Shown piece after piece: positions 900 through 54,977 of a DNA stretch of 64,000 bases (position 1 is its first letter; the number at the start of each line of letters is the position of its first letter). A model generated the notes under the pieces. It worked only from the letters and a program-made list of their open reading frames with translations. It made no database searches and had not been told where the DNA came from. This stretch comes from Lunularia cruciata. Lineage: Eukaryota; Streptophyta; Marchantiopsida; Lunulariales; Lunulariaceae. The stretch covers positions 26,366,517 to 26,430,516 of the forward strand of contig OX419755.1 of assembly GCA_948567375.1 (NCBI GenBank). The letters run 5' to 3'. Both the position numbers and the translations under genes were made by a program.

Positions 900-1330
900 T
901 GTGGATTCCAGTAACCCCGTAAAATTTTACGAGTACCGTACTTCACATTCCCGTATAATTTCCTACGGCTGCGGACATTTTCCCGTAAATCTCAAGTATC
1001 TTTTGCTTCGCTACCCTAAAACCTTTACAAAATGCCCATAAAATTAGATATGTGAAAATTCCGGGTACCCGTATATCCCCAACAGAACTCCGGGCCAGTT
1101 TTAAGTAGAGCTTTTTCATTATCTATAAAATGTTAATGAAATTATTTGGATATCTAAAAGTAAAATTTACGGACAAAGTGCAAAGGTAGTCTTTATTTAT
1201 TTTCGGGGAAGACCCCATAGTCATACAATATTAACGGATCATAAAATTCATAACCCGAAGTGTTCTACGGAGTTCCCCGTAAGTTTTAATTAACCCATAG
1301 AGTTTAGTTAGGGTCATTAATCATAGTTTG
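900..1330. repeat. CCGTAAA-word-rich block
   Basis: The words CCCGTAAA, TTTTACG and CCCGTAT recur many times here in both orientations, including the perfect palindrome CGTAAAATTTTACG near 918. The same word set recurs at about 12890-13730. No ORF or terminal repeat explains it. It may be a degenerate DNA transposon or satellite remnant. Confidence 0.3.
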
Positions 1331-2129
1331 GAAATGTGTCATCTCGATATGAAGCAAACCATTGATTTCTTTTGAAAGAAAGAGTTGTGGTGGGCGATGG
1401 GTTCTCCTTCCCTTGTGTTTTCATTTGTTGTGAGAACTTTTGAATTGTGTGAAATTGTACGATATGGTGTTGTAGCACATGGCAAATATCGATATTTTTG
1501 GTATGTATTCAATTTTTGTGAGAATTTCCTTGTATGTTTTCATTTCTGGTGAGAAATTTTCATTTGTGTGTAAGATGCAGCATTGCAACACACACAAAAA
1601 TTTTAACAAAGGAAATTAAGAAATACATACAGAAACGGATTTCCAATAGTGAATTCACTAGAAAGTGAATTGGCTTTCGTCAATGGTAAGTGGACGAGGG
1701 GATCGGAGAATTAGAGTTTAGGAAAATTGAATGAAACATGAAATGACAACCATTCTCACCAAATTCTCACAGGTAGAAGAAGATTGGACGGAGAAGGTTC
1801 GGGAGAAGAGAGGGTGTAAAATTAGTAAGAGAGAAGTAATTATCTGAAGGAAGTTACTTTTAGAAGGACTAGGAGAGAAAAGCAGAAGGTTTCTATATCT
1901 CTCTTACTAATCTCTTTCCAAATCTAACCTAGGGTCTAATACCATTGGAATAGAGCAACAACTGTAGTATTCTATGCCAATGGATCTCTCCTGCTTCATG
2001 TAGTTTGTAAATTCCTTTTATAATATGGCCAATACCAAGCTCAAGCTCAAAATCAATAAAAATAAAATAAAATCTAGTTGCTATCTCCTTATGTGCTACA
2101 TGTTATATTCTAGTATAATAAAGACACTA

Positions 2130-3190
2130 TTGTCAGAGGAGGAGAAAGAAGAACCATGTTAGTGGATATATGGGATCATGTGCAAAAAATTCATGTGGTA
2201 AATAAAAAGCATATCGAGGGGAAAATGCAATATTGCGGATGCTGCTCTTTATGTCTCTCCATTGCTCCAGCAACCCGAAGTAGCCCTTAAATAAAAGCAT
2301 ATCCAGCATGGAGTTGTGAGAGAAAGAGAAAGAGAAGCCATGATAGTGGATATATGGGATCATGTGCAAATAAATCATGTCTAGCCTCATTATGGAAGGG
2401 AAGGGAGTATATAAAATGACTATGAACTCAAAAAACTGATCTCAAATAACCCAAAATACAACTTACTTAGATTGCCAATCACTCCAAGAACTTGACTAAT
2501 ATAGCAATAAGAATAATAAACATCCATCAAGAAGTAGTAATGAAATGGACATACCTTATATGATTTCCAATCTAAACAATCCTGATTCAGTTGCTTGCTG
2601 CACATAGATATCCAAGTGCTTGAATCACAATCCTTGCATATCCTTCCAACATGTATCTTAACTTAGAGAGATAAAGAGTCTATGACACTAAGCATGGTCT
2701 ATCATGCAACATTCTAAGCTCAGAAAAGCCATAGCTAGCACAACGAAAATGATATTAACAAATGAAATCCATAGTGTAACTTCTCCACCTGCCAAACTGC
2801 AACTTACTAACACCTCACCTCATAAGTGTAAATGTAAACTCTTGAAATCCCAAAAACTAAAAATACTCATTAATTCCACACTCCGATATTTTCAAACTTA
2901 GTCCCCGTAGAACATAGTGAGAAAACCTATACTTAACAGAAAAAGAAACCTGAAAACCTATACTTAAGAGAAAAAGAAACCTGAAAAATCATTTAAATAT
3001 TGTAAAAATACAACTAAATTCTATAATCAAAATTTCTCCATAACCTTCAATGTGGATGCCTATGGAACCAAATTGAAAAATAAGAAAACATTAAGTGTAA
3101 TTTCTCCTTGATTCATTGATTGCTTTAAGATAATTACTGAATAAGATTCAGTAATTAATTTTAAAAACTAACTCTTTTTCCATTGCCCTA
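2130..3190 (-). repeat. Repeat copy related to 52250-53150 (LINE 5' region)
   Basis: Several blocks match 52250-53150 in the same order and orientation. Examples are CTCAAATAACCCAAAATACAA (2440s) versus CTCAAATAACCAAAATGCAA (52370s), TAGCTAGCACAA versus ACAACTAGCACAA, and CTCCATAACCTTCAAT versus CTCCATAGTCTTCAAT. In the larger locus this segment holds the N-terminal finger and 5' leader of a LINE on the minus strand. An internal duplication of about 184 bp (near 2138 and 2323) repeats AGTGGATATATGGGATCATG. No intact ORF remains. Confidence 0.5.
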
Positions 3191-4939
3191 TATATACAAA
3201 TATATTTTTAAAAAGTTGTTTTTTTCTCGAGCGGTCAATGTTTACATCCAGTGATGTTAACACAAAGAACATTGTCCATGATGCTTTGCAATGGCCTTTC
3301 AATGCAACTGTCGCTTAAAATAAGAACGGATTAAAACCTCAAAGCGTTCAACTCTATCATGCACTAGAGAAGAGAGTAAACCGGTTCTCTATTGATCTGA
3401 GTGATATATTCATACTTGACTGTTCAGAGCCTCGTACTCTAAATCTGCATTTGAATTTTCAGATGGACACAGGTACACCTATTCTTATCTACCGACGTCG
3501 TCTTCTAGGCTAATTCGGTACTATAGAATCATGGCACGTTATGTACGTTAACATACTTACCAGGGTCAGATTTCTCTGCTTGCAATCCTCCATGTACGAG
3601 TCTTCTGGCGCAGCTTCTTCAGCCATCCCAATCGAATCCAACGAAAATCTCCGTCAAGGCCTCACTGGGTATACAGTACGATAAGTACCGTAGTATGTCT
3701 CAGAATTAGGAAAGTCCGCAGTGACTTGTCGTAGGACTAACTAGTGTACAGTGGAGTAGGGCATCCTGATCTTTATCTTAATAAGTTATTAACCAGTACA
3801 GTAGCATCACGTCCTTTCGACTACAGTGTTTCTGTTTCATAGTACAGTCCTCCTAATTTATCGGGTGATCTTTGCGACAAAATTGGATCACGGCTTCCTT
3901 TATGAACCCGTTCAAATCACTGGATGCTGCAGGCGTATTCTATTCATATGATGGGCTGGAGCATTACCTTATGAGAGATGTTCATGCAGACAACAATCTT
4001 ATGCTTTTGAACCTGTAAGCGATCGTAGTTACTGTTTCTCAGAAGAATCTTCATGACCGGCTTTTGGCGTGTAAAGGGAACAGGATGACCACCGGGAGCA
4101 AGCATCCATGCTCAAGCACTCATCGATTCATACCTCATGATGGTAACAATGAGGGACACATCATTGACAGTTCGTTTCGATTCACAATGTACACATTTGA
4201 TTATCAGTCAAGTAGAGATACTTCCTCTCACTTCCTACCAAAGGTGGTGGTCAAGTGATCATGATCTTGTAAACTTGAGCTTTCCCTTGTAGCTCGACTT
4301 GCGTTCTAATCGTTACCTTGCCGTAGGCACGTAGGGCAAGGTAAACTTCTTGACTTGTAATGAAAGCCAGACTCAAAACTGTAATTCCTCTTAATTCACA
4401 GAAACATTCGCCTTGCGTGCCGTGTGGCGCTCTGACGATGTGCATGAGCTACGGTATGGGGTACTCAGAAGTATCCGTGTCACTGGCTGACTTCTTCACG
4501 AGAAACGTTGCAGTTCTTGAACACTTAGTTCTCCTAGGGAGAGTTCATTTCTCGGTAAGTGGATTTGATTAGGCGTGATGGAATAAGAAAGGTAATTGCA
4601 AATTGATTTCAGAATTATCTATAGCGCAACATCAGAGTCACGAACAATACAAGCAGTAGAAGGCTGGCCAAGCACACTTTTTGCAAACATGGGCGAGGAG
4701 ACCCTGACATTGTGGTTGTCACAAGGCCGCCATTCGCCTGCAGACAAGAACATGTTTATAGATGAGAAATAGGAGACACAGAGAATGATGTACAGATTTC
4801 GTTAGGTTGGATGCACTGAACAAAATATGAAGAGAACTAATGACCTCTACACTAACCTAAGACTCGATAAACATACTCCGTATAAATTCCGAGGATTATG
4901 TCCTGTGCAACTCAAACCCCACTGACGAGCCTTAATTGT
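3191..4939. other. Intergenic, 3' side of the amylase gene
   Basis: Only ORFs shorter than 75 codons are present and none is recognisable. The 3' UTR of the minus-strand amylase should lie just below 4940, but no clear polyadenylation signal was chosen. Confidence 0.4.
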
Positions 4940-10870: not shown

Positions 10871-13800
10871 TTACGATGATAAATGTGGTTGTACAGGATC
10901 AACTAGCGTCGCTCAGCAACTTGAATCAAATGGCGGGATGTTCTTGAAGCCTGCACGAGTTCTTTCGACTCCTTTATTCCCAAACTCTGTACTACGGAAG
11001 GGGGAGGATAAGAGATCTCTGAGACTGGACGCACCCCACTGTCAACCACACGTTGACAAATAAAATGTTCCATAACTTCCATAAAACCATCCTGAATTGA
11101 CTTCCTTTATCCCTCCTTCCCTGGTCTGATTGAATGATTCCAGTCAATATTTGCTTTCAGGCCGCAGAAGGTCCGCCTCCTGCACTCAATGCTCTTGACT
11201 CTCAGAAAGTCCGTCTGAGTCAATCGGACGTCCCTTCTTTTCCTCAAACGTTAGCTGTTATATGTCATCTCGTTTATCTACCCAGGTGTGATCTTCCGCG
11301 ATAACGTTTAACACTTTTGACGAAGGTACGGCCTCTTGTTGACTTCTATGGTAACAGCCTCGGTATTTGGTGTTCCAAATGAAGGTCTGCTGCAGTTGTA
11401 CCTCAACTTCTGTCCCGAGTACCACAACGGCCGTTATCAATCAAGAAAGTATTCTGGGCTGAGCGAGCGTCCGTGATCCGAATTACTGAGCGAGTTCATT
11501 GGCTCCAGTTTTCCTTCACCAAAGTTGATGGTGTTCTTGTCGTGCAATGTCAAGTTCAGTAGGTGGCAAGGATGAGTGGATTCTTCTGTCGGACTGGGCA
11601 AGATATCCATCCCCATCGATGCAATCAGGTTCGTATCAAGTGTTTTATATTTATTCAAACAACTATTGGTTTGCATGGGGAAAGGCGTTGGCATTGCGTC
11701 AAAATGTCATCTACGTTCAACTCCCTCTAGTTACTATGATGCATGCGCTACAAATGCGGGAAATAATCATAATGGAAGTATCCGCGACTATATTTTGCTC
11801 TAAAGTTCATCGGTTTACATAAGATAACCCGGATAACGCATTTTCATGCGTTCGTGGCCCTTTAGTAACTTGTGCATTATTTGGCCTCGTTTTTTAGAAG
11901 ATATATTTTCGTTGTATCCAAATTTACTCCCATTATTAACCAAGATGTTTGATACGGATACTAGAAGATATTGACCGATTAGCTTATGTATACTCAATTT
12001 CAATTCTTGTTTGTTCAAGTGCTTGTCTATGGCTTTTAGCTTTTCTTCGTAATATTGAATGATATATATCTTTCTAAAAGTTGAGGGTGCTACACACAGA
12101 AAATCGGAAATCGGAATCGAGTATTCGGATCAAGTCATACTAGTTTAGTAGCTTTCCAATGGTTATTAAAGCCATAATTGATTATCAAGTATCACTCTGG
12201 GCTCTCTGGGATTAAGGAAACCGAGTTGATTTCTTGTGCTCAGGGAATATTTACATCTCTCGTTAATGAAGAAAAAGAAATCAATATAAGTCTAATAAGA
12301 CATTTGATTTACACATCTTATATGATTAAAAACTGATATAATTCAAGCTTCGTAAGTTTCTGAATCTATAACTTGAACTTTCTCTGTAAACAGGAACAAT
12401 ATTCCTAAAATGTTGTTATATGTTATATGTTGTTATTGTTATATACAATGAGAAAGTAAAGTTATAAGTTGATAAAAATTTTGATTTCCACATGTTAAGA
12501 TTCAGAAAAATTTATTTTTCAAGCTTAGTAGGTTACTTGGTCTATGTGCCTAGACATAAAAACATACTTCTAAAATTTTTTTTCAACGGCGATGTACAAT
12601 GGGGTTTTAGATGTAAGCTTTTTCAGTTCTGTACAAATCCATAAAGAAATTTGTACAAAACTTACTGGGAACTTGAATCGTGGCACGTAAGAATTTAGGA
12701 GTTAAGAACATTCTGCACACTTTAGAGAAAGTCTTTTCTTGCCCAAAGTGTATCATTGACATTTCTCTTTCCCCTAACAGGCATACACTCAACGTCATTT
12801 TGTCATATGGTTCATTAAATAGTTTCCGTAATTCTTTTTGGAATCTCTGCCATAATACTATCAGATAATTTTTTAAACAAAAAGCTCCAGAGACATTCAT
12901 CACCCATAAACTTTATATGGAATTCTATAGGAATATTTCCATCACCCGTAAAAAATCCAAATCCTTCAAATCCAACCGAGATCTGAAACTCCCAATAGGG
13001 GGTTTTAATCTCAAATTTATGGGTTTTCTACGAGTACCTGCAAGACCGTAAATTTTGTGTAGAGAACCCGTTTGTTACAGGGACCCGTAAAGGAAGTGGA
13101 GGTTTTAATTAATAGGGAGTTTCAAAATTCCCTTTTCAGCGTAAATTATATTTCGATGGGGTCAGTTGAAGAGAATTCATGAGGTGTCTAAAAAATGCTC
13201 CCGTGGCCTTTAGAAATGTGACGGTAATTGAAATTGTGCCCTGTAAATAATTAAGGGTGGTCCATTGGCCGTATCTGTTGACAATATAGCTCCGAAGAAT
13301 GACCCCAAAAGAAACCATCTCAAACCCTAAATTTTTATCGGTGGTTTCATAAATGTACTTGTTTTAGTTTAAGGGACCCATCGAAAAATTACAGAATCGG
13401 ACCACACAAGATGAAAAAAAAAAAAAATTTGCTTAATTCCAATACAGTCGGTGTAAAAAAATCTGCCTATGGCACCTAAGATATCTATGCTATGCAAACC
13501 ATAATATCTAGAAACTACTAGGCATCCAAATAAACATGAATTAAGGTATTCTCTTCTCACACCCCTTGACAATATAGATGCCAAAATTGCTAAAGTGAAA
13601 CCCCCTCCGTGTAGCTTTATGGATTTTTAATGTCTTTACAGGAAGTAATACTTCCTGTACAGACATTTTCGGGAATTTTACGAGTAACAGTAAAACGGTA
13701 ATTAAAACCCCCTAAAAAGAAAATTTTCTCATAGTATCAAGGGGAGCATATGAATTTGATTAAAGAAAATCACTTCCCAAATTATAGATGTGTGTTCCTA

Positions 13801-16969: not shown

Positions 16970-17340
16970 ATCCTCACCTACCAAAATAAGTCAATGATTC
17001 TTTCACATGGGCTATTCTTGGACTATAGAAAAATTCACACCAACTAGACATGTGTGCCCAATAGTTATTAACTCTTTCCTCAAAGCCAAATAACTAAGAG
17101 TAATACCAAGTCAATACACTACAAGGTAAAATAGTGATGCTCACTCTTTCTCCTTCCTCTGGAATATGGTCACATTTATCTTAGCTAGGACCAACTCAAG
17201 CTAATCATGACTAATGTAGAAGTTTGGCTAAATTCTATATACATTATATTTCTCAACTATTTTCAATACCAAACTTAATATCCCTATAGAGTATACATGC
17301 ACCAATGAACGTTACAAGACAACCTCAACCCATTTCTCAA
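16970..17340. repeat. Segment shared with the copia element at 48900-49260
   Basis: Blocks such as TTCACATGGGCTATTCTTGGA, CTCTTTCCTCAAAGCCAAA and GCTAATCATGACTAATGTAGA occur here and at 48940-49160 in the same order and orientation. Here the block sits inside the gypsy gag-protease interval, antisense to its usual copia reading direction. It is probably a copia fragment inserted in the gypsy element. Confidence 0.6.
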
Positions 17341-17960: not shown

Positions 17961-18139
17961 CCTAAAATTGGCTATGAAGCTATCAATGAGTTTTTGGTAT
18001 ATTTTTTACCTCTACCCTATTAGTGGAAGTCCTCTTTCAGTGATTCCTCTATCTTATCTCCTTTGAAAATCATATATAACATCTCTAAAGATATTACCAA
18101 GCTAATTTCACCTTGAGATACTTAGTGGTATTACACGGA

Positions 18140-18232
18140 AAAAAGGCAACCACGTAGGAAAAATGAAGGATGGGAAGACCACATCAAGCCGTACAAGGGA
18201 GAGCAAAAAAGGTAACATGGGGCTAAGCTCCA
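18140..18232 (-). mobile_element. 93 bp LINE-tail mini-insert with TSD
   Basis: The insert carries AAGGATGGGAAGACC, GCCGTACAAGGG and GGGGCTAAGC, the 3' tail of the LINE family in minus orientation. It is flanked by TAGTGGTATTACACGGA (18123-18139) and TAGTGGTATTCCACGGA (18233-18249), a 17 bp target-site duplication with one mismatch. It lies inside the gypsy element, so it is younger than that insertion. Confidence 0.8.
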
Positions 18233-22100: not shown

Positions 22101-23813
22101 ATATGGTTATACTAGCGACCCATTTGCAAATGGTAAGTAAAGTGAGAAATGTGACCATGTAAGATAATAAGAAGGATGGGAAGACCCCATCAAGCTGTAC
22201 AAGGAAAAGTCATAAGTTGTAAAAATGACACAAAGCCTCAATGGTACTTAAAGTTGCGTTTATAGTGTTTATCATTATTAATTGTAAGTGATAATGATGC
22301 ACATGTCGTATTCATGTACATGGTCTTTCATTTTATGTGAAAAAAGAAGCAGAAGAATCATTTGATGAAACATTCTCAACCGATATGTCATTTTTGAGAC
22401 TTGCAAAAAATCATCAGGTGTAAAATCATTGGTGATAGTATCGGTGAACATCAAAAGGTTTGAAGTGTTAGTAATATTGATTTATCAACCTTGGTCTAGT
22501 CCTCATATGTAATAACATCGGCTTCGTGAGTGTTCTGCTATATCATTTATACATACGAACCGTATAATATTCAAGTGATTGAATTGCATATTCTACCTCC
22601 TTTTCTCAATCGTCCTATTTCACTTGTCTCTAGAGTTCTTATGATCGACTAAATGTATGCTTTATCGAAGCGTATGAAAAATATATTTTTTGAATAAAAT
22701 CTGTAAGCTACCATCGGTTTCAAAACATCCTAATAGGTACTCTGAAACATCCTAATAGGTACTCTGAACTTAGAATTGACGGTTCATAAAACATGTTTTC
22801 ATTTTGCACAATAAAAACGTATAGTATGCTCCAAAGAAGTCTCCTTAATTAGTCTCAACGGAGACAAATTGAGGATATCTGCCAGCATACATATATACAT
22901 AAAATTATTATGTATTTCTTTTTATCCTCAAAAATATCTAAACTTTTGTGACAAATTAGTAGAGAGACTGTTTGCGCACTACTACATGATAGTTTTGCAT
23001 GTAATTGCCTAATAAATTTTTAATACCTAAATTATTATTTTTTGTAACAAGGCAATAGAACATATGTCGTAGAGATGTCGTTATGAAAAGATATGCATGA
23101 GAATTGAAATTTTTGAATAAATATAAGACAAAATTTGGTGGTGAAAATAATTGATATTTAATTAGAAAGCAATAAAATAATATTTACAAGACGATACATA
23201 ATATTCATTGCACATTTGACATGGTATGTGAATCCAATATTGCAACTACTTCACCAAATACATAGAATTTACATTTAGAATGCCCATAAATATACATAAA
23301 ATTATGTATCTCTAAAACTATTACAACATATGAGTTATTGTGTTTGAATGCTTAGAGTAATGCATAAATTTAACTTCTTATTAACATTCACAGTTAAGAT
23401 CTTTTATTTTTAGTTTAATATTTAGAACTATAAAGTCAGGGTTTGAAAGATATTTATTATAGCAATCATCGACTTTAAAGACCATCAGGTAGGTAGGAAT
23501 ATTTCACTAGTAATAAATTATTTTTAACTTTATTGAAATGTAATTACCTTTTAGTTTAGATCACCAGTTAAATAAGAATATTTTCACTAAAAATTCTCCA
23601 ACTTTCTTTTATTAAAATTCAGTACTGAAACTGAAACGGGATTACCTTTATTCTAACCTAAACTTCCCATCGTAACACAAACCCTTAATACCTTGCAAGA
23701 TATATTATTTCTGAAGTCACGACTCCAATCTTGACACAAAAATATGAAACGTTAAACACCAAGGAGTACGATTAAGTCTTTCTCTCATCATGGGACACCC
23801 TACAGTCTGGTTG
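22101..23813. other. AT-rich intergenic DNA
   Basis: Apart from the 96 bp LINE-tail insert, only AT-rich sequence with frequent stops is seen. A short tandem duplication of ACATCCTAATAGGTACTCTGA lies near 22725-22770. No gene is supported. Confidence 0.5.
22144..22239 (-). mobile_element. 96 bp LINE-tail mini-insert with TSD
   Basis: It contains the perfect GATGGG-AAGAC-CCCATC hairpin (22175-22191) and AAGCTGTACAAGG. AATGGTAAGTAAAGT (22129-22143) and AATGGTACTTAAAGT (22240-22254) flank it, a 15 bp duplication with 13 matches. Its length is close to the 93 bp insert at 18140. Confidence 0.7.
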
Positions 23814-23845: not shown

Positions 23846-23902
23846 TAAAGAAAAAGGCGCCACTTAGGAAACACAAAGGATGGGAAGACCCCATCAAGCC
23901 GT
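23846..23902 (-). mobile_element. 57 bp LINE-tail mini-insert with TSD
   Basis: The insert carries the hairpin GATGGGAAGACCCCATC (23879-23895) and little else. It is flanked by two 32 bp copies of the target (23814-23845 and 23903-23934), beginning ACAAGTTTAGG and ending TATAAGTC, with about 27 of 32 positions identical. Confidence 0.7.
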
Positions 23903-23934
23903 ACAAGTTTAGGATCTCTACTTGTATATAAGTC

Positions 23935-25031
23935 AGAAGCAGGCTACCGTGTAGAAGAAACGAAGGATGGGAAGACCCCGTCAAGCCTTACAAGAGAGAG
24001 ACAAAAGAGGTGATATGCGGCTAAGCCCCAATAGAGTCTATATGAGAAATCTACCCTACCGCACCTAAGATATCCGAGCTATGCAAGTCGTACGGTCTAC
24101 ACACAACTGGACCATGTGAAGAAACATCACCTAATGTGATTGCTCTCCTATGGATTGCACCAGCCACTGCCCTTGGCAAAGCAATGTACATACACTGTCT
24201 AAAATAAGCTACAAAGTATGAGAGTGAGAGTGGTACCCCTGACTCCTAACATGATAAGCTCTCCCGCACTCCCTAACAAATGTGTCAAATGCCATGTCCA
24301 TTGCTCCATATAACTCCAAGGCTAGAGGAACAAAGAGGTGACCTCGTTGTATGCCCCTATACTTGGAGACCTTGTGACCTGCTGCTGCACTCGCCGCCCA
24401 TCCAAGGGGATGGGTAATCACTCCTTCCAAAATTGTATCCCATATAGGGTCCGTAACCACAACATCCGCTATTGTCACTTGATCATTTGGGACCAAGTAT
24501 AAGTCTACCCTGACACGTGCAAAGCATACAAACGCTCCTTCCAAGCCAAGTATCCACTCTCTCGTGCCATAGCAAACACTATGTCCCTAATGACATCATG
24601 GGTAGCTATCCTCTGTCCTCCAAAAGGACATCGTGTCATGTATACCGTTGCTACCTCTAGTGTAGAACCACACTCACAAGTGAGTAATGAAGATGCAGAT
24701 GGGTGGACCAAACCTAGGCGAAACCTCATCGCGATAGAGAAAGTAGCTGGTGCGAGTTGAAATGCCCTAATGCACAGTCGAGCGAAGATCCAAGAGCCTG
24801 GACCCTTGCCGGAGCAAGAGCGAAGACGTGCTCTAGTAACATGAAGAATGGACGAGTCAACTAAGAGAGAATGTAACATATGTTCACCGTGTCGCTCCAT
24901 CAAAGAAAACTGTAAACCTCTAGTACAATCTGACGAGAATGAAACATAAGGTGTAAAATCCTCTCGGGCCGTGGTGATAGACCATCTCACTTATATATAA
25001 ATTTTCGTGGCCATGGGGATAGACTATCTCA
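23935..25031 (-). mobile_element. 5'-truncated LINE copy A
   Basis: This minus-strand copy keeps the C-terminal nuclease region and the 3' tail with its hairpin (23966-23982) but lacks the reverse transcriptase, as expected of 5'-truncated target-primed insertion. CTTGTATATAAGTC (23921-23934) and CTTATATATAAATC (25032-25045) flank it and match at 12 of 14. A duplication of about 50 bp around CTCACTTATATATAAAT lies at the 5' end (24985-25045). The insertion ends about 350 bp before the start codon of the ropporin-like gene and could affect its promoter. Confidence 0.75.
24209..24990 (-). pseudogene. LINE C-terminal Cys/His and restriction-like nuclease region
   Basis: Two overlapping reading frames join by one frameshift near 24520. 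The first has a cysteine/histidine block (CECGSTLEVA, RCPFGGQRIATHDVIRD) and ends WKERLYALHVSG. The second continues RVDLYLVPNDQVTIADVVVTDP. The order Cys-x-Cys, His/Cys, R-x-x-H-D, Glu, R-x-D-L, A-D-V-x-V-T-x-P fits the restriction-like endonuclease of R2-type non-LTR elements (their R/KPDL and DVTVT blocks). This is my assignment from motif order, not a search result. A related but more decayed copy lies at 49804-50450. Confidence 0.65.
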
Positions 25032-25391
25032 CTTATATATAAATCCGGGCACAGGGAAAAGTTAAAAGTTTACCTCGAAAAGACCCTACTTTGTAATCCT
25101 TCGTGTTTTCTTTTGTAATCTAAGTCCGAAAGGTCGTATTGACGTTGAAGTGTAGAAGTTAGACGATGAAGCTATTCAGGTTGATTCAGACTGTACTCAC
25201 GAGCTTCATTTGAACGAAGAACGCCTGTGGAGATGAGCATTGATTTCCTCGGCTTTAGGTCAGGGTTCATTCGATGTTTGGGGGCACATGGATTGATCGA
25301 TCGATTGAGCATCAGAATTTTAAGCGGTGAGAATGATCTCAGTCGATTAGACTACGGTAATTGAAATTGAAGAAACCCGACGTGTAGCGAG

Positions 25392-26253
25392 ATGGCGAAT
25401 CTGTTGGATCAAAACCCCATCTATTGCGTTGAGCAAATCCTCATACCCGAAGGTTTGCCGGCAATGTTGAAGGTGTTCGCTAAAGAAGCAATTCGCCATA
25501 ACCCTACAGATCTCGAAACTTTTGCTTGGAGATACTTTGAGAAGCTTGCTGCAACTGTCAAACTCGATGATACTGCTCCACCTCCAACTATACAGCAGGT
25601 TTATCATCTCATACTGTTATGCTCTCTCCTCCTCCTAAAAAAGCGGAGGAGCGCCTGCCCGGCTGGTCACCTGCGTGAAACTTATGTGAATCTGCCAAGG
25701 ATCCGTCTCCTTTGTAGCCTGTCAATAATGTCATTAATTTATACGCAGAGAATACGCAATTTATCCTCTAACGGGGTTAAAAGGTCAAGCCGCTGCTGGC
25801 GTTTATCTTCCCGCATCTTCTCAGATATCCCTCCCAAACTTCAACATTCTTGTTTGAGGAAACCAACACAGTTCGCATCAGGGTTTATACAGCATACCTC
25901 GCTCCTCAATGGAAACTGTGCTTTGCACACAAGGAGTGCTTGAACTCCATCCCCAGTGCAGTTAGTGACCTGCGCGTTAACTAGTACATTGTAGTTGGGT
26001 TTTGAGTTCAGCAAGTATGTTCTTTGTCCGTCCTCTTTCCGCTGCGAAAATAGTCAGTAACGCAAGGAATTACGGCGGTGGAAATCGGAATGGCATGGTC
26101 CGATATTGAGTCCTTTTTTCTAAACAAGAGCATACCATACTGGCCGTGGTCCTTTCAAACTTCGACAATTAAGCTTGTTTTCTGTGACGAGACCAACAAC
26201 TTGTGCGAGATGAGCGGTGCGGTATTCGGTAGATATAAACAGCTAAAGTTTTG

Positions 26254-42630: not shown

Positions 42631-42664
42631 AAGAGAAAAGTGAAAACGTGTAGGAAACATGAAG

Positions 42665-42729
42665 GACGGGAAGACCCCATCAAGCCGTAAAAGGGTGAGA
42701 CAAAATAGATAAAATGGGGCTAAGCCCCA
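42665..42729 (-). repeat. LINE B 3' tail with two foldback motifs
   Basis: GACGGG-AAGAC-CCCATC (42665-42681) and TGGGGCTAAGCCCCA (42715-42729) lie in the order seen in the other tail copies. In the element's own sense they form the 3' end of its RNA, where R2-like elements carry structures used to start reverse transcription. That role is inferred. Confidence 0.6.
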
Positions 42730-42932
42730 ATCGTGTCAATATGAAAAATCTGCTCTACAACACCTAGGATATTCAAGCTATGCAAGTCATACTATCTACA
42801 AAAAAATAGAGCATCCAAAGAAGCATCACCTAGTGTGATTTCTCTCTTATGGATTGCATTAGCCACTACACTCTGTAGAGCAATGGACACATGCTATCTA
42901 AAATATGCTACAAACTATGAGAGTGAGAGTGG

Positions 42933-43193
42933 TGTTTGATCAATCTGACGAGAGATACAACAACATACAAATTACAAGTGAGTGTACACATTAGACAAGA
43001 GTACATGGTTCACCTCGATGTGAGGCTACATCCACGAGAAACTTCAAAAAGAAAAACTTTACTCACTAAGCCTCTTGTCATGTGCAAGTCCAATACCACC
43101 ACCTTCTCACAGTCCACTCTCATTATCACCCATGCAAGTGAACCAAAATCCCAAATACAGAGTAACCTTAAGGCATAAGAGTAAAACCTAACA
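42933..43193 (-). repeat. Copia LTR (3' in coding sense)
   Basis: 261 bp from TGTTTGATCAATCTGACGAG to GTAAAACCTAACA with TG...CA ends. It aligns along its length with 49540-49798, for example at GTGGTTCACCTTGATGTGAGGC and CCTTAAGGCATAAGAGTAAA. Confidence 0.9.
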
Positions 43194-43194
43194 A

Positions 43195-43206
43195 CTCCCC
43201 CTTGAC
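43195..43206 (-). other. Copia polypurine tract
   Basis: On the minus strand GTCAAGGGGGAG ends one base before the LTR, the position and composition of a plus-strand primer. Confidence 0.8.
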
Positions 43207-43844
43207 TAATGTCTTGGGGTTAGTAACCTTGCAACAATTTATCACTCAGCAGGAAGTTCTAGACAAACAGCCGATCACTTAACCCCTCCTTTAAACTAGG
43301 ATAAACTAGAACTTATAATTGTTGCACATATAGGGATAGAGTAACCAAAACAGCCAAGTTCACCTCCAATGCTAGGTCGCCCTACTCATGATCTACTTGC
43401 ACAACCTATAGGGTATCACGATGCCTAAAGAAACTTTCTAAAGGTATGACTTTGGTAAAGGCATCAGCCGGGTTGAGCTTCCTATCAATCTTGACTAGAT
43501 TAAACATTTTCTCAAACACAATTTGCCTAAGAAAGTGATACCTGATGTCTATATGCTTAACCCAACTATCCATCACCTGATTTTCAGCTAGGTGTAAAGC
43601 ACTTTGACTGTCACAATGAAGCATTACATTACCATGCATTAGCCCCATTTGAGCAACAAGTCTATCCAACTAGATCGCCTCCTTTGTTGCTTCCGCTGCT
43701 GCCACATACTCAAATTCTGTAGTAGACTGTGCAAGACACTTATGCAAGGTATATCTCTAACTAATGCACCCAAAACCAAGTGTGAATACATACCTTGTTT
43801 TTGACCTCTGCTTATCCAAATCTTGTCCCTAGAAAGCATCTACT

Positions 43845-44248
43845 TAGCCATCTAATGATGCGGCATTCATCAATCTTCTATCAAATAAGAGCCCATAGTC
43901 TAATGTACCTCTCAAATACCTGAGAATCCACTTAATTGCTTCCCAATGTATCCTTCTTGGATGTAACAAAATGGAGATTAATGATGAAGTTAGTAGAGCT
44001 AACAAAGTTTAGGGTTGACAAAGTTTAGGGCTAACAAAGTTTAGGTTAGCCATCTAATGATGCGGCATTCATTGATCTTCTATCAAATAAGAGCCCATAG
44101 TCTAATGTACCTCTCAAATACCTGAGAATCCACTTAATTTCTTCCCAATGTATCCTTCTTGGATGTAACAATATGGAGATTAACAATGAAGTTAGTAGAG
44201 CTAACAAAGTAGCAAATAAGACAAATTAGCCTAGAATATTCTAGAAGT
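43845..44248. repeat. About 202 bp tandem duplication
   Basis: TAGCCATCTAATGATGCGGC starts at 43845 and again at 44047. Both copies run through the copia RNase H segment into the first bases of the gypsy-type LTR (TGTAACA...ATGGAG). The duplication therefore arose after that LTR inserted. Confidence 0.85.
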
Positions 44249-45301
44249 ATCTAGGAAGCTTCCGGCTAGCTTAGCTTCCCAAGTAGGTAGCTTCTAGAAG
44301 GAAGCATCTAGAAGCTTCCAACTAGCTTAGCTTGCACACCAAGTAAGCGGCTTCTAGAACATTCCCAATTAACTTGGCTTGTACTCCAAGAAAGTGGCTC
44401 AATGTAATACCACAAGCTAGCCATATGATCTAGATGTGAAATTTGGTTTGGTAACATCTAGAATGATTTTATACATGATGGTCAAAATAGATCAGATAGA
44501 AGTATCATCAAAAAAGTACTTCTACTAATAGAGCAGAAACCAAAATAGACTTGAGAACCTTATAACCAATAGCTAGACATATGATTTAAAGGTGAGAATT
44601 GGTTTGATAACATCTGGAAGGATGTTACACATGATGGACTAAACAGATCAGAAAGAGGTATCACCAAAAGGAGACTTCTACTAATAGAGTAGGAACCAAA
44701 ATATACCTGAAATCTTTGAAGGCAATTTCGGAGGACTAAAGGGATGAATTAGGCCTCAAAAATGTGCAGTCCCCCCCCCCCCCTTCCGATGAAGGTAAGG
44801 CTGGCCTTCCCTCCACCCTGGTTTGTCTTGTTGAGAGCTTTCTAATGGTACCTTACGTGATTTTGAGACTCCTACAAGAAGATTCCCTAAAAGATTCCCT
44901 TTGGTCAAAGCTTGTTTGACCAACCAGATAGGACCTAGACCGACATGTCACCCATCCAAGTAAGTAATCCAAGGGTGGAGCTTGATGACATGTCACCTAT
45001 CTGTGTGCCTAATCCTATGGTGGAGCTTCCTTGGAGGAGATCCTCTTTGTCTATATAATAAAGAGAAGGTGCTCCTTTGGAGCACCAAATGTTGAGTGTG
45101 TAATCTGTGTTTTCTCTTTTCTTTTTTCCTCGGAGTATTACACTCAAGGAAGCTTCTTGAGAAGCTTCTCAAGGGTCTTGTATGCTCCCTATAAATACAA
45201 GAGTTAAAGCTCATGCTAGGCATTCGGAGTTTTCCCTCATTCAAGTGCGCCAATGTGAGCTTCCATTCTTCTCTTTCCCTCCTTGGTCTTAGACTTTTAT
45301 A
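44164..45301 (+). mobile_element. Solo gypsy-type LTR inside copia pol
   Basis: The ends match the chromovirus LTRs: TGTAACAATATGGAG at the start, and CCTATAAATAC, GCTAGGCATT, CTTTTATA at the end. TTGGA (44159-44163) and ATGGA (45302-45306) flank it, matching at 4 of 5. Removing the insert and one repeat restores copia reading MSNPRRIHWEAIKW in frame. It is about 1.1 kb, longer than the LTRs at 15.1 and 21.7 kb, because of extra internal sequence: the segment inverted relative to 17700-17960, a 13-base C run (44771-44783) and a partial repeat of GACATGTCACC near 44940 and 44990. Confidence 0.8.
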
Positions 45302-45970
45302 ATGGATTTGACATATACATGCACACCTTACCTATTGCTAGGGAATCAGGTCTAGTGCAAGTCATCAAGTACATAAGACTCCCAACAGCCTCCTCATAAC
45401 AAAGGTTTGCCATCAAACCCTTCTCCACTGCATCTTTAGGACAACATGCCGCTGAAAGCTTGAAATGAGAAGCTAGAGGAGTACTTACTGGTTTATAGTT
45501 CTCCATGTTGAACCTAGCAAGTACCTTCCTAGCATACTTACCTTGCATCAACCACAACTTACTAAACTGACTGAGTGCCCAAGTTTCTCTTGATCTCCAT
45601 GCCTAATATCCTTGTGGCCAATTTTAGATCCTTCATCTTGAACTCCAAACTCAAGAGCACCTTGAGCTTGTTCACCTCAGATCTATCCTTGGCAACTATC
45701 AACATGTCATCCACACAACACAAGAATAATAAAACCAAATGTCTTATTACTCATTGGTTTCATGTATACATAAGGATCAAAAAAACTCCAATTAAAACCT
45801 TGAGCGTGCATAAACACATCAAACCTCCTATTCCATTGGCAAGGTGCTTGCTTCAATCCATACAAGGACTTTAGCAATCTGCATACCTTGTCTTCCTGGC
45901 CTTTCTTAACAAACCCCACATGTTGTGTCATGAAGATCCTCTCATCCAAGGTGCCATAGAGAAATGCCAA

Positions 45971-48484
45971 TGTTGTCGAGAAAATAGCCCATGTGTACTA
46001 TTGATGCCATTTGGTGTGAGATTTTTGATTTCTTGTGTTTCAATGACTTCGGGTTTTTTAATTATTGTGTCTTTGGAATAAATTTCATGCCATTGTGAAG
46101 TCTGAGGTTCTTTTATATTTCATAAGCTTGAAGTTTTAGAAATGATGCATAAACTCAGGAGTATCTATTAGTTGCATAAAAATGGGAATTCTTTTGAATT
46201 ACACAAACTCAGGGCTTAAATTTATGTTACACAAGCTCAAGACTTTTGTTTTATGTTTCAAGAGGTCTTTGGAAATTGACAAGCCATAAGGGTTTAGTGA
46301 GAATGCTTTGAGGGGACAGAGGAGATCTCTGGCTGATGACAGGACAGTGAAGGATTTGGAGAAAGCTTCAAGTGATCAGGAGGGTTTCAGGAATGTTTCA
46401 GGAGGTCTTTGGCAATTGACAGGCCATAAGGGTTTAGTGAGAATGCTTTGAAGGGACAGAGGAGATCTCTGGCTGATGACAGGACAGTGAAGGATTTGGA
46501 GAAAGCTTTGAGTGATCAGGAGGGTTTCAGGAGCGTTTTGGGAGGTCTTTGGCAATTGACATGCCATAAGGGTTTAGTGAGAATGCTTCAAGTGGATAGA
46601 GGAGATCTCTGGCTGATGATAGGATAGTGAAGGGTTTGGAGAAAGCTTTGAGTGATCAAGAGGGTTTTAGGAATGTTTTGTGAGGTCTTTGGCAATTGAT
46701 AGGCCATAAGGGTTTGAGAGAATGCTTTGAAGGAGCCTTTGGCTAATAAGAGGCCAGTAAGGTTTTGGAGAATGCTTCAAGTGACCAAGAGTGTGGAGAG
46801 AAAGCTTTAAAGGAGTCTTTGGCTGATGACAGGACAGTGAAGGGTTTGGAGAAAGTTTTGAGTGATCAGGAGGGTAAAAAATGTTTTATGAAGCCTTTGT
46901 TAATGACAGACCAATAAGGGTTTGAGAGAAAGCTTTGAACGAGTCTTTGGTTGATGACAAGACAGTGAAGGGTTTGGAGAAAGCTTTGAGTGATCACGAA
47001 TGTTTCCGGAGGTCTTTGTCAATTGACAGGCCATAAGGGTTTAGTGAGAATGCTTCAAGTGGACAAAGGAGATCTTTGGCTGATGACAAGATAGTGAAGG
47101 GTTTGGAGAAAGCTTTGAGTGATCAGGAGGGTTTAAGAAATATTTTTTGAAGCCTTTGTTAATGACAGGCCAGTAAGGGTTTGAGAGAATGCTTTGAAGG
47201 AGTCTTTGGCTGATGACAGGATAGTGAAAGAGTTGGAGAATGCTTCGAGTGACCAGGAGTGTGGAGAGAAAGCTTTGATAGAGTCTTTGGCTGATGGCAG
47301 GACAATGAAGGGTTTGGAGAAACTTTGAGTGATCATGAGGGTTTCAAGAATGTTTTGGGAGGTCTTTGGCAATTGACAGGCCATAAGGGTTTTGTGAGAA
47401 TGCTTTGAGTGGACAGAGGAGATCTGTGGCTGATGACAGGACAGCGAACGGTGGTGGTGGCTGCAAAGGAGAGAAATACCGGAGGGAAGACAAGTGAATG
47501 TGCAGAAGCAAAGGGAGAGAAGAATTTTTGTGTGCTTCTAAGATAGGGGGAAGAGATATCAAAGGCTGAAGAAATATGAGCAGAGAACTTTAGAGGTGAG
47601 AGATATTGCTTGCCTAAACAGAGAGGAGGGAAGGAGATGATGCATCAAATGAGAAAGTGAGGTCCAGGAAGGGGAACCCTCAAGGGGAGAGTCTGGACTG
47701 AACAAAGTGAGAAATGCTTGGTTGTGCCAAGACAGAGAAGAACAGAAAATTTTCAAGAATGAATTTTTGAATTGACTGTGACAAGGCATAGAAGAGAAGA
47801 GGTTGAGAGAATTGGTTGTTTGTGATATGAGAAGGAGAGAAGATTGGCTGGAATGAATTGCTTGGACAGTTGAGGAATTTAGGTGTGGTCACTGCATAAG
47901 AATAGAGTTGTTTGGCTTTGTCCAACTTATAACTGCATGGCTGGTAAATATGATGATTCGTGAGCAAATGCATGTACTCTAAACTATGGATATTGACAAG
48001 GGAAGGACTCTATTTTAGGAGCTCTCAATCCAATTTATGTGAATGACATAGTTTAGTGATCTGGATGCCGGGTATGAGTCCAATAGATTGCTTGCGGCTA
48101 TTCTACAAACCTCACCAGATCCAGTCTTATGAACCTATCTGGTCCAAAACCACAAACCTAAACTTCAAAGGTGAACTGGAAACAAGACTATACATGAGTA
48201 AAGAGCCACAAACTCAAACTTGAAAAACCCAAACACTTCTATGAACGTCAACGTTAACCTGCAAGATAAAACACACAAACCCCAAGAAGAGCCTACCACT
48301 AGGAGTGATTGGAAACAACCTGCTCCAACAAGGGTGAGATTGCCAACCATACAAGAGTAAGAGAAAGAGTGTCAAACTACAAGAATCCTTGAGTCTTTGA
48401 CAACAAAAGCAATTTAAGCACAAGCAGCCAGGTGCCCAGCACACTCTTGAGACCAGACAAACCCCGTGTGACACCATGACAACA
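45971..48484. mobile_element. 2.5 kb segment interrupting copia reverse transcriptase
   Basis: The segment separates RT motifs that are normally adjacent (LTFDQMNV and AFLYGT). Its ends are TGTTGTC and GACAACA, inverted repeats typical of LTR-type termini, but no matching LTR pair or target duplication is visible. It is mostly a tandem array plus purine-rich sequence. Mobile origin is inferred. Confidence 0.45.
46240..47440. repeat. Tandem array, unit about 138 bp
   Basis: GGCCATAAGGGTTTAGTGAGAATGC recurs near 46286, 46424, 46562 and 47031, with variants between and at about 47380. Other unit words are GGAGGTCTTTGGCAATTGACA and GGAGAAAGCTTTGAGTGATCA. The first units are about 138 bp apart, later ones are irregular. 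About eight units. 138 is a multiple of three, but stops make coding unlikely. Confidence 0.85.
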
Positions 48485-48806
48485 TTCATTTGATCGAAAG
48501 TAAGACCAAATAAAGCAACAAGCATACATGATAGACTTATTGTCAAATACTTTGCAACATGAGAAAAGGCCTCATTGTAGTCCACCCCCTTCTCTTGACT
48601 GAACCCCTTTGTTACCAACCTATCCTTATAGATCTTTGATCCCTCTTTAGGACCCTCCTTCAACTTGTGGATCCACTTGCAATCTATCACTTGTTGATCC
48701 TTAGGTAACCTAACTAGCTTACAAGTCTTGTTATCCCTTAAGGATTCCATCTCCCTCTCCATAGAGCCAAATTACTCATCCTTTTCACTAAAATAACATG
48801 CCTCAT

Positions 48807-48855
48807 AGAAGGTGATACCCTCATCCTACATTGTAGGATGATGGTATCACCTTCT
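48807..48855. repeat. 24 bp near-perfect inverted repeat
   Basis: Arms 48807-48830 and 48832-48855 pair at 23 of 24 positions with a one-base centre. It lies just upstream of the copia reverse transcriptase relic. Such a tight foldback suggests an inverted local duplication. Confidence 0.85.
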
Positions 48856-49524
48856 TCCATGACCAAAGCATGAGCATCATCCCTAGAAGATGGTTGGATC
48901 AAGATCTTATCTTGACCCAACCACTCAGTCAAGGATTCCTTCACATGGGCTATCCTTGGACTATAGAAGAATCCAAAACAAAAAGGCTTGCGGGCCCAAG
49001 AGTTTTCAACTCTTTCCTCAAAGCCAAACACCTAGGAATAATATCAAGTCAACACACTAGAATCCAAAATAGTGGTGCTCATCTTTTCCACTTCCTCTAA
49101 AGTAAGGTCTCCTCTATCTTAGCTATGAATAACTTTAGCTAATCATGACTAATGTAGAACCATCTTTTATCTCTTTATAAATAATATATCTCAAGTACTT
49201 GTAATACCAAGCTAAATATCACAATACCACACACATGCACAAATGGGTGTTACATACTTTGTCTCCCGGTTTCTCTTGCTCTCAACTCCTCCCTACCTAC
49301 TTGCACTAGCTGCAATGTTCATTTGTTGGTTCTACCACCTAGCACAATCCTAGAGGCTTTCAGCTCCCTTCCTCTCCAAAAACTACAGAGTGTGGGGGAA
49401 CAGATGATTGACTAAGGTCTCCAAACTGAGGTTCAACCTTTAGTACAAAATTGCTTTAAGCATCAGCTCCATTGAGCCACCCCTTGTCTCAATTTCCCGT
49501 GGCCTCCAGCATCAACATCAATGC

Positions 49525-49536
49525 GCTCTAATACCA
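49525..49536 (-). other. Copia primer-binding site (initiator Met tRNA)
   Basis: TGGTATTAGAGC on the minus strand differs by one base from TGGTATCAGAGC, the complement of plant initiator-Met tRNA. It starts three bases after the LTR. Confidence 0.88.
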
Positions 49537-49539
49537 ATT

Positions 49540-49798
49540 TTTTTGATAAATCCGATGAGAGACAACAACATACAGATTACAAGTGACTGTACACATAAGA
49601 CATGAATATGTGGTTCACCTTGATGTGAGGCTACGTCCATGGGAAGCTTCAAAGAGAAAAACTTTACTCACTTAACTTCCTCTCATGAGCAAGTCTAGGT
49701 CCACCACCTTCTTATAGTCCACTCTCACTATCACCCTTGAGAGTGAGCCAAAATCTTGAATACATGGTAACCTTAAGGCATAAGAGTAAAACCTAACA
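49540..49798 (-). repeat. Copia LTR (5' in coding sense)
   Basis: 259 bp partner of 42933-43193. Its inner terminus has decayed from TGTTTGATC to TTTTTGATA, while the outer terminus keeps CCTAACA. Confidence 0.9.
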
Positions 49799-49803
49799 AG
49801 TGG

Positions 49804-52606
49804 TACTCCTTGGCACCTAACATGATAAGCTCTCGCACACTCCCTGACAAATGTGTCAAACGTTGTGTCCATTGCTCCATATAACTCCAAGGCTAGAGGA
49901 ATAAAGAGATGACCTTGCTGCACCCCTATACTTAGAGACCTTGTGAGCTTGCTATTGCACTCACCGCCCATCCAAGGAGATGGGTAATCACTCCTTCCAA
50001 AATTGTATAATGTGTAGGGTCCATAACCACGACATCCACTACTATCACCTAATCATCTTGGACCAAGTATAAGTCTACCATGACATGTGTCATTTGCAAA
50101 GCATACAAACACTCTAAGCCAAGTATCCACTCTTTTGTGCCATAAAAAACACTATGCCTCTAATAGCATCATGGGTAACTATCCTCTATCCTCCAAAAGG
50201 ACACTATGTCATATCAACCACTATTGCATCTAGTGTAGAACCACACTCATAAGTGAGTAATGAAGATGCAAATGGGTAGACCAAACCTAGGCAAATCTCA
50301 TCATTGTAGAGAAGTAGCTGGTGCAAGTTGGAATGCCCTGATGCACAATTCAGCTAGGATCCAAAAATCTACATCCTTGTTGGAGCAAGAGCAAATATAT
50401 GCTCTAGTAGCATGAGGAATGGACGAGTCAACTAAGAGAGACTGTAGCGTGTGTTGATATTGTTGCTCCATCAAGAAAGACTATAAACCTCTAGTCCATT
50501 TGCCAATAGTGAAGAAATCTATCTCCACAGGCACATGTGCCTGTGGAGATAGACTATCTCTTGTTTGCCACAATAACATCAATTGAGAAAAGGAGTGTCA
50601 TCTCCTCCATAGATAGTAAGCCAACCCCTCCATATATAGTAAGTCAACCCCTCTACATGAGATCAGTAAAGATGTCTATTTATGTGCCAAATCCACTATC
50701 ACACACTCAAATGTCCTTGTTCCAATAATATCACCAAAGATTCCCATAATCCTCCAATCCAAGGTTCTCAAACATAATAGGAAGGTCAAGGAGGAGGGAT
50801 CTATGTGAAGGAGGTAAGTTAGTCAATGAGCAATACTAAAGGAGAGTATACCAAATGCCACTTGCAGATCTCTTAGTAAAGGAAGGTCATCCACATGGAG
50901 AATACCCTTTGCAAGAGCAATGTCTAAGAAGTGTGTGACAAAATCCTTATATCCTACCGACACTCCAAGAACATGTAGTCCATCTATAGATATGATACAC
51001 CATTTTGGAAGCTTAAGGTGAGGAGGGATACCTAAAGGGCACCACACCCTGCACTTTGACACCTTGACTCTCAAGCCTACTAGATGTAGCTCAGTAGTCA
51101 AGTGGTCAAAGGCCTACCTAATCTGATCTATAATGCCTACAATGTATACATCATCTACCAAGGAGGGAAATACACAACTTGGCATAGCCAAAGTAGAAGA
51201 TAAGAGAGCTCTAAAGTGAGCCATGGTAAATAATGGTCCCCCTAAAAGATCTTGTTGACATGCACCAATAATTGACTCTAAGTTGGTGATTCTCTTGTGT
51301 GAAAAATTGTGTTGGTAGTAAAGGGAAGCAAGAGAGCCATAAAAAGACCACACAAAAGGAATTAGACTCACCAAGGATCCACCAGCCTCCCTAAGCTCTC
51401 TAAAGATGGATCCTCATAAGATGTTATTAAAAGTGTTCTCAATATCCACATGTAGGATTATCCACTCTAGATGGATATCTAGGAGTGCACTAATGCCTAA
51501 AGATATAGCCTCACATCCTCCAAGTGTAGCTATTCCAAACTGATGTGGACTATGGTGCTATTGAAAGTGGGAACTATGCTAAATGACAATAGTGTGGCTG
51601 ACCAAACACAAAAGATCTCTCTAATAACAATTGGTCTAATGCTTCTTGTGTCCTTCTCCATAGCAAAAAGTTGATTAGCACCTAACATCCAACTAATAGA
51701 CATAGGAATATCTCCTCTTGCTATTATTATAGCTTCCTTAAACAACTCGATAAAACCACTAGAAGGATCATCTACTTGAAAGCAATATTTAAGATGCTCA
51801 TATACTATCCCTAACAAGCCTCTTGAGGAAAGGCAAGGGCTATACACAATGCTTGTGCAAAAAGTGAACTATCAAGATATAAAGGCTGCCCAAGATGATA
51901 ACCTAAGACCTCTAGTGGTAATCTTGTTCTTGCCATAGGATATTGTGAGAGTATGGAAGAGATAGTCTCATCAATAGGACTAGCCATAGACAAAGGATGC
52001 AATGCTTTTGTTGCTCTACTAAACTCTCCCGTCTGACCCAATGTCATACACCGTTGTAATCAAGTGGACTCTATGGCATCCTGTGGCAAAACCTCTCTCC
52101 TAAAATGTGTAGCCCTAACAGAATCTTCCTATAGTGCTGCTCAATTCCTTGCTTAGAATCAACAAAATCTAGTAGCCACCTCTCTATGTTCTGTACGTCT
52201 CACTCTAGCATAACAAAGACACCATTGAAGGAGTAAGAGGAATATGAACCAAGCTAACTTGTCCAAGGGATCATGTGCCAAACAATCAAGTGGTAGGCAA
52301 AAAGCCTATTTAGCTTCATCATAGAGTGTATGAGGTAGCCTATGGAATACATATGGACATGGAAAACTGGGCTCAAATAACCAAAATGCAACCCACTTAA
52401 GAAGCTAATCACTCCCACAACTTGATATGTATCCTTGGAATGGTCAAAAAAAGGATATAGGAAGCGTGCGTAATCTTGAGAGTCATTGTTGTTGATGTGG
52501 TTGCTCACCTCACGTGACCATCCCAAGTGGTACAATCATAGTCCTTATGTATCCTCCCCACATGGATCACTCCTTGTCAGGTAAAGCGTTGTTGACACAG
52601 TATGCA
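49804..52606 (-). pseudogene. R2-like LINE protein relic: finger, RT, nuclease
   Basis: In coding order: a C2H2-like finger (52606-52547; C-x2-C, ten residues, H-x4-H; one stop inside). A segment with GEFSRATKALHPLSMAS follows (about 52025). Reverse transcriptase comes next: GLLGIVYEHLKYCF, GIATLGGCEAI, motif A HVDIENTFNNI, motif B region GACQQDLLGGPLF, motif C FPSLVDDVYIVG (YADD changed to LVDD) and WCPLGIPPHLKLP. The nuclease region (about 50450-49804) is very broken but keeps HDAIRG-like and LELYGAMDTTFDTFVRECAR blocks shared with copy A. Both catalytic aspartates remain in the RT. Stops and frameshifts make the copy dead. Confidence 0.7.
50518..50553. repeat. Perfect 36 bp palindrome
   Basis: Two 18 bp arms meet without a spacer at CACATGTG. 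The arms include ATCTCCACAGG and its complement. It lies between the RT and nuclease parts of LINE copy B. Copy A has only a related right half (GGGGATAGACTATCTC), so the palindrome arose after the copies split. Confidence 0.92.
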
Positions 52607-53150
52607 TGGCGTATCCCGAGCTGCTTTGGGTGGCCTCACATGGGAAAGTGTAGCCACAACTAGCACAAAAATAATGATAATAACACATGATGCTCCTCTC
52701 CATCTCTTCCCATACTTGCAAAACCATAACCCTTCATATCCCAACTCACATGATAAATACTATATGCAAACCCTAAAAAACTATAAACCCTCTTAATTTT
52801 TAATTCCCATCTCTAAAATTTTCAAACTAAGTTCTCATGGAATTATAACATGAATACCTAGAGGTTAAAATTGAGAACTCCTGACCCATCAATCTCAATG
52901 TTTAATAATCATTCTAAACCCTAAAAATCCCTATAACTTTCTACTCAATTCTCCATAGTCTTCAATCTAGGTACCAATAGAACCGGAATTGAAAAACAAA
53001 CAGAAGTATTATTCACTTAAGTGCTATATGCTAGAGGACACTCAGAAAATGTATATCTTTCCTCTCACATCTCTCCCTCTCCTTTCTCGTCTCCACACAC
53101 TCTTCTTATAAAATAGTCATAGAGGCTCTACATGATTTTATATATTCATA

Positions 53151-54562: not shown

Positions 54563-54977
54563 GATGCTTTCTCCATATCTCCGTTTTCTCTACAAGTCAC
54601 TTTTGATCGGATGCATGAGTGGTAAGATATTTTCCTTCTCTCCAATTAGGCAGGCTCAATTTCTTAATCTCACTACTGTCTTATGTCTTTAGAAGAAGGT
54701 GACCGAGTGCGATGACAAGAAGGATGGAAGACCCCACCAAGCCCGTACAAGGAAAAGATATAGAGAGTAAAATAGAGCTAAGTCCCAATAAAGAATAGAT
54801 ATAAAGGGTAAAACGAAGGTAAATCCCAATAGTATTGGTAAGAGGAATGTTATGTTTTTTAACCTCTTGTGTCTTATCCTTGTGCAGCTTGATGAGGTCT
54901 TCCATCCTTCTTGTTGTCCTGCGCGGTCGCCTTTGACTTATTCAATGGCAGATGCTTTCTCCATATCCCCATTTTCC
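54563..54977. repeat. Inverted pair of LINE tails between 27 bp direct repeats
   Basis: One tail (about 54695-54762: AAGAAGGATGGAAGACCCC, CCGTACAAGG) and a second in opposite orientation (about 54883-54941) face each other. GATGCTTTCTCCATATCTCC (from 54563) and GATGCTTTCTCCATATCCCC (from 54951) flank the block, matching at 24 of 27. It looks like a foldback retroposon or a twin-primed insertion with its target duplication. Confidence 0.65.

Follow-up and report, generated by a model that had tools for sequence, protein, structure and literature searches.

Organization of the locus

The window, 64,000 nucleotides of the Lunularia cruciata genome (contig OX419755.1, forward-strand positions 26,366,517 to 26,430,516), contains two long copies of a long interspersed nuclear element (LINE). 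The element is very probably of the restriction-like-endonuclease (RLE) type, with a C2H2 zinc finger, a reverse transcriptase (RT), a Cys/His knuckle and an RLE in that order. An earlier note, made from the letters alone, had placed an R2-like retrotransposon at 49804..52606. The order of finger, RT, Cys/His and nuclease block that it had recognised holds, with all parts on the minus strand; the interval is real but too short. The parts of copy 1 are the following.

42636..53105, minus strand: LINE copy 1, nearly full length, first ~40 bp absent, split by the copia element 49798-42933
49799..52654, minus strand: coding part before the nested insertion, residues 2 to ~985 (tblastn with the 1055-residue protein of intact copies)
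52547..52606, minus strand: N-terminal C2H2 zinc finger, CILCQQRFT*QGVIHVGRIH, first Cys at 52606, with an internal stop
50619..51808, minus strand: RT region, with stops and frame changes (tblastn with homologous proteins P0009, P0010, P0005 and others)
50034..50075, minus strand: RLE aspartate pair, VDLYLVQDD*VIVVD, aspartates at 50075 and 50036, 13 residues apart
42933..49798, minus strand: Ty1/copia element in the LINE open reading frame (ORF), with a long terminal repeat (LTR) pair, primer site, RVT_2 and CCACT duplication
42723..42932, minus strand: coding part after the nested insertion, residues 986-1055 (tblastn)
42636..42722, minus strand: 3' untranslated region (UTR); the element match reaches 42647, with 3' flank beyond

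The earlier interval ends at 49804 because the copia element interrupts the ORF there; LINE sequence continues from 42932, and copy 1, with the copia element between its two halves, therefore runs from 53105 to 42636. The element of an intact genomic copy, L019, aligns with copy 1 at 53102-50620, 50594-49799 and 42933-42647, about 110 bp of element sequence being deleted near 50620-50594. Copy 1 is bordered by CTATTTTATAA (53116-53106) and CTCTTTTATAA (42635-42625), identical at 10 of 11 positions. The copia LTRs (5' LTR 49798-49540, 3' LTR 43193-42933) have TG ends and are 84.6% identical in a self-comparison of the window (42935-43194 versus 49542-49799); a primer-site-like TTGGTATTAGAGC begins at ~49538, and RVT_2 is found at 48771-48214 (E = 2.4e-14). 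CCACT is present on both sides of the insertion (49803-49799 and 42932-42928), and copy 2 is unbroken at this site.

The VDD motif of the copy 1 RT is located at 51155-51150. The two RLE aspartates correspond to D996 and D1009 of Bombyx R2 in the alignment and to D895 and D908 of intact copies, and the reading around them is VDLYLVQDD*VIVVDVVVMDP. The zinc finger reads CPVCHRRFTSQGVKTHVGRMH in intact copies. Copy 1 is dead, because its pieces aligned by tblastn with the 1055-residue protein contain 28 stops (4+6+0+15+0+3) and several frame changes. The homology itself is not due to chance, since tblastn with 91 homologous proteins matched the window 118 times (E ≤ 1e-3) and the reversed window not once. 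Copy 2 is much shorter.

23941..24988, minus strand: LINE copy 2, 5'-truncated at element position 2692, 89.2% identical to the element over 1057 columns
24464..24505, minus strand: RLE aspartate pair of copy 2, RVDLYLVPNDQVTIADVVVTDP

In the self-comparison, copies 2 and 1 match at 24229-24927 / 49799-50498 (82.8%) and 23948-24234 / 42647-42933 (80.5%). The aligned pieces of copy 2 contain one stop as well as frame changes. The motif R-x-D-L / A-D-V-x-V-T-D-P of the earlier note is exact in copy 2 (24505-24464); copy 1 reads otherwise. The Cys/His block that it had noticed beside the nuclease has degenerated in the two window copies (YECG..D..*C and CECG..Y..C), but its first Cys and His are kept in all genomic copies compared below. 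Pfam found nothing in eight decayed window pieces except a sub-threshold DUF7949, and a single-query protein search with the read-through chain returned one protein.

Intact copies in the genome

The genome searched comprises 565,766,749 bases in 74 contigs. With copy 1 DNA as the query, 40 matches were scored from 6,868 candidates; with the homologous protein P0010, 67 were scored from 17,780, and the matched stretch was stop-free in 52 of these 67. The 30 copies with the best protein scores (L009-L038), a choice that favours intact copies, were compared. The 29 others are 97.3-99.9% identical to L015, and 20 of the 30 contain an ORF of at least 1000 amino acids. Among the 24 copies without 5' truncation, pairwise differences average 0.71% (median 0.63%, range 0.03-2.09%), with a ratio of non-synonymous to synonymous polymorphism (pN/pS) of 0.53. 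The L019 element is about 3.73-3.75 kb long and has a single ORF of 1055 amino acids (element 501-3668).

A 27-base pattern from the 3' UTR, with at most 2 mismatches, occurs at 7,194 genome sites (3,640 + 3,554) and at 0 in the reversed control. Further family matches were present in 10 of 38 flank sequences (53,503 bases sampled). The copies are located in eight contigs of 60-85 Mb, which together make up 558 of the 565.8 Mb. Abundance, which the earlier note had suggested from two copies in 64 kb, is confirmed by the genome searches and the 3' UTR pattern; the count of two is right for long copies, with six short 3'-end fragments and a weak internal piece besides. The LINE family has been recently active, and it may still be mobile today.

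Protein domains and catalytic residues

In the intact 1055-residue protein, Pfam detects RVT_1 (6.6e-15) and a sub-threshold DUF2225; no apurinic/apyrimidinic (AP) endonuclease was found in it up to E = 10. The N-terminal finger is a motif reading, C-x2-C...H-x4-H at residue 18, where Pfam gave no finger; its first Cys is kept in 29 of the 30 genomic copies. Both RT aspartates, the first Cys and the His of the knuckle (positions checked), D895, D908 and K939 are kept in all 30. In an alignment of the C-terminal part, the C, C, H, C, D, D and K columns are invariant across 7 of 7 sequences.

Profiles were compared with proteins in the PDB. A whole-protein profile (A3, 46 sequences) matches R2Tg at 1.5e-49 over RT, knuckle and RLE; in Bombyx R2 the RT and RLE stretches are matched separately (RLE 4.9e-05), and human L1 is matched at 1.4e-22 over the RT only. 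For a profile of the C-terminal part alone, R2Tg (2.5e-05 and 3.4e-05) and turtle R2 (0.002) are the top three of six sequences, the first non-R2 match being CheY at 0.25. An RT-only profile places vertebrate R2 proteins first (3.3e-14), with human L1 and Bombyx R2 equal at 1.9e-05, a long way behind. Foldseek, run with a predicted model of the relative P0002 (mean predicted local distance difference test score, pLDDT, 88.2), returned R2 for the top seven chains (best 7.1e-24; best L1 5.9e-14), a search that excludes no family beyond those named. A model of P0002 built without an alignment (pLDDT 37.4) was unusable. By analogy with these proteins, we infer the enzyme activities of the 1055-residue protein.

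Insertion pattern and proposed mechanism

The 3' end GCGGTCGCCTTT is common to 29 of 29 copies and is followed by TT(T), C being the most frequent base next (19 of 29 at position 4). Beyond it, the flanks are T-rich and unrelated among the 29 copies. L015, the 3' flank and 5' end of which deviate, was excluded from these counts and from the duplication test. Six of the 30 copies are 5'-truncated within the locus, starting at varied internal points. Exact flanking repeats of 9-14 bp were found in 9 of the 13 copies with the 5' junction read, versus 2 of 156 mismatched pairs. Rfam detected no rRNA, U2, other snRNA or any other family in 10 loci (37,960 bases). The insertions are dispersed through the genome and not tied to one gene.

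Because the common 3' end, the 5' truncations and the target duplications fit it, we propose target-primed reverse transcription at dispersed sites. Transposing the R2 mechanism to this family, the 1055-residue protein would bind its own RNA via the 3' end, and its RLE would nick chromosomal DNA on one strand. The DNA 3' end released in this way would then prime copying from the RNA 3' end. A cut in the second strand a few bases off would result in short target duplications and in many copies truncated at the 5' end.

Some further observations concern the element ends. The T-run closes the element in every fetched copy except L015, and may be a transcription terminator or derive from the target. 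Rfam found no ribozyme at the element 5' end, with one chance-level SOX2OT match (E = 0.53), and the 3' UTR folds no better than its shuffles (z -0.53, 47 of 200 shuffles equally good). At 23851-24030 of the window and in the 5' flank of copy L046, family 3'-end fragments lie adjacent, as though older 3' ends attract insertion.

Relatives and alternative identities

The first alignment search found the 91 homologous proteins used above, and a search with an intact copy found 417. Named relatives among the 91 and the best 120 of the 417 are Riccia fluitans (P0009) and Closterium strains, with moths more distant. The nearest named relative, in the tree and in the first search, is that of Riccia fluitans, on a 60-Mb contig. 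Searches of plasmids and viral contigs gave no match. A profile of the RLE block (A4) is matched by 152 of 197 fetched proteins, and by 90 of the 99 with at least 900 amino acids; six of the matched proteins took part in building it. A few RTs of the family are also found tagged as bacterial proteins of metagenome-assembled genomes (Pseudomonadota, Polynucleobacter), as in P0143 and P0174; these two are probably eukaryotic contamination of the bins.

The tree has 45 rows: the family, 40 of the 197 fetched proteins and, as the sole named references, three R2 and one L1. P0010, the closest protein by score, was omitted, its RT being partial. The family groups with Riccia (support 94/89); six unnamed proteins come next (100/97), followed by three Closterium rows (99/94). 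A further two rows of Closterium attach at 90/59, so that this genus does not form one clade. The three R2 rows are outside a group of 41 rows (100/99), beside the long L1 branch; the R2 and L1 branches are long and drew a warning from the tool. P0049, a distant homologue with RNase H (65-165) upstream of the RT (511-732), is in a separate cluster (92/88).

In the broad sense, the R2-like RLE LINE proposed at the outset is supported, and none of the three contrary results named with it occurred. The RT does not go with L1: R2 comes first for the RT-only profile, and the tree, with its long branches, places the family with RLE-bearing proteins, away from the single L1 row. The intact protein has no upstream AP endonuclease, and the best PDB matches of the C-terminal profile are R2. 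The element is R2-type in the broad sense only, set apart from the 28S-targeting R2 and from Utopia by target, and its clade is uncertain. We tentatively suggest that it may belong to a streptophyte clade of RLE LINEs that predates land plants, survives in Closterium and liverworts, no longer has its target specificity and is live genome-wide in a land plant; the case for this is close to balanced, and we hold it with less than even confidence.

It is rather unlikely, but worth weighing, that the family instead belongs inside R2 sensu stricto or Utopia/NeSL, that is, in a known target-specific RLE clade so far unlisted for plants. Utopia shares the domain order, with one to three N-terminal fingers, RT, and a finger plus RLE, in the excerpted text of PMC4640811. 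An RNase H placed upstream of the RT is reportedly confined to oomycete Utopia, and P0049, which has it, is a distant homologue. The targets speak against this placement: all 29 flanks differ past the first bases, with no 28S insertion, and no rRNA or U2 family was detected in the 10 loci, by which R2 sensu stricto and Utopia were each rejected. In the tree, too, the family is with Riccia and unnamed proteins, then with part of Closterium, while P0049 lies elsewhere and R2 is outside the 41 rows.

Contamination by oomycete, alga or arthropod DNA is very improbable. Many homologues are unnamed environmental proteins, which would suit it, but it was rejected on the location of the copies in the eight large contigs and on the 7,194 3'-end sites genome-wide; the window copy is also split by a copia element, and the nearest named relative is on the large Riccia contig. 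An ordinary plant LINE (L1 or RTE) misread through decay can be dismissed with still greater assurance, the intact copies having a C-terminal RLE, no AP endonuclease upstream of the RT, and an end in GCCTTT plus a T-run, with no poly-A or GTT repeats.

The streptophyte reading, if true, would put R2-type machinery in plants beside L1 and RTE.

Other features of the window

Short pieces of the family are scattered through the window.

18138..18232, minus strand: 3'-end fragment, element 3659-3754, between CCGTGGAATACCACTA and CCGTGTAATACCACTA
22147..22215, minus strand: 3'-end fragment, element 3683-3750, with ACTTTAAGTACCATT and ACTTTACTTACCATT close by, one per side
23851..23907, minus strand: 3'-end fragment, element 3695-3752, directly downstream of copy 2
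54867..54934, plus strand: 3'-end fragment, element 3683-3750
54693..54793, minus strand: 3'-end fragment, element 3653-3752, 76% identical
13439..13557, minus strand: C-terminal/3' UTR fragment, element 3540-3661, 74% identical

The weak internal piece of the family lies near 2.1-2.8 kb. A 328-bp piece of the copia element (48927-49254) occurs again at 16989-17316 (77%), and within the copia interval, at 46223-47452, there is a tandem array with units of ~128-140 bp that is strongly G-rich (GC skew 0.49). An ORF at 25371-25943 (plus strand) has a weak RIIa match (E = 0.0024), under the Pfam cut-off. RIIa-type proteins are flagellar, and one would suit a plant with swimming sperm.

Significance

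As excerpted, a review from 2022 on transposable elements of land plants gives plant LINEs as L1 and RTE only (PMC9033089), and the Utopia paper describes Utopia as the most widely distributed target-specific lineage, plants not being named in that extract (PMC4640811). The excerpts of open-licence literature consulted, including PMC5348765, PMC7650587, PMC12885004 and PMC9985172, contain no RLE LINE of a plant, and literature searches directed at such elements listed none, an unpublished or unlisted entry being possible. That a land plant hosts a recently active RLE LINE extends the range of hosts for R2-type machinery. With its RLE kept while insertion is dispersed, the family makes loss of target specificity open to study. 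It is also a plant source of R2-type proteins, which abstracts describe as current tools for inserting DNA into animal cells. A relatively large share of Lunularia repeats is denoted unknown in the part of the genome paper available (PMC9985172); our results suggest that repeat libraries based on L1 and RTE may file such copies as 'unknown'.

Comparison with known systems

Dualen/RandI is a green-algal LINE with an RLE plus an AP endonuclease. The Lunularia family resembles it as an RLE LINE of the green lineage, but was not assigned to it, both endonucleases being needed and no AP endonuclease having been found in the 1055-residue protein. With plant L1 and RTE it shares an RT and 5'-truncated copies; unlike them, it has an RLE and ends in a T-run, where L1 and RTE have an AP-type endonuclease and a poly-A or GTT tail (PMC9033089, in excerpt).

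BLAG of Blattella, compared by description, likewise combines an R2-type protein with dispersed insertion (PMC7650587, in part), but its host is an animal and it forms a separate clade adjoining R2. Utopia/NeSL, as partly seen in PMC4640811, has the same succession of fingers, RT, and finger plus RLE; Utopia has U2 snRNA genes as its insertion target, and its reported hosts are Amoebozoa, SAR and Opisthokonta. By that description, the Lunularia family differs in that the tested flanks contain no U2 gene, RNase H is absent and the host is green.

From R2 (R2Bm of Bombyx mori, R2Tg of Taeniopygia guttata) the family is distinguished by dispersed insertions without a 28S rDNA target and by an RT that falls outside the three R2 rows, on long branches. 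It resembles R2 in its one ORF, in the order of finger, RT, knuckle and RLE, in 5' truncation and, as for D996/D1009 of R2Bm, in RLE aspartates 13 residues apart.
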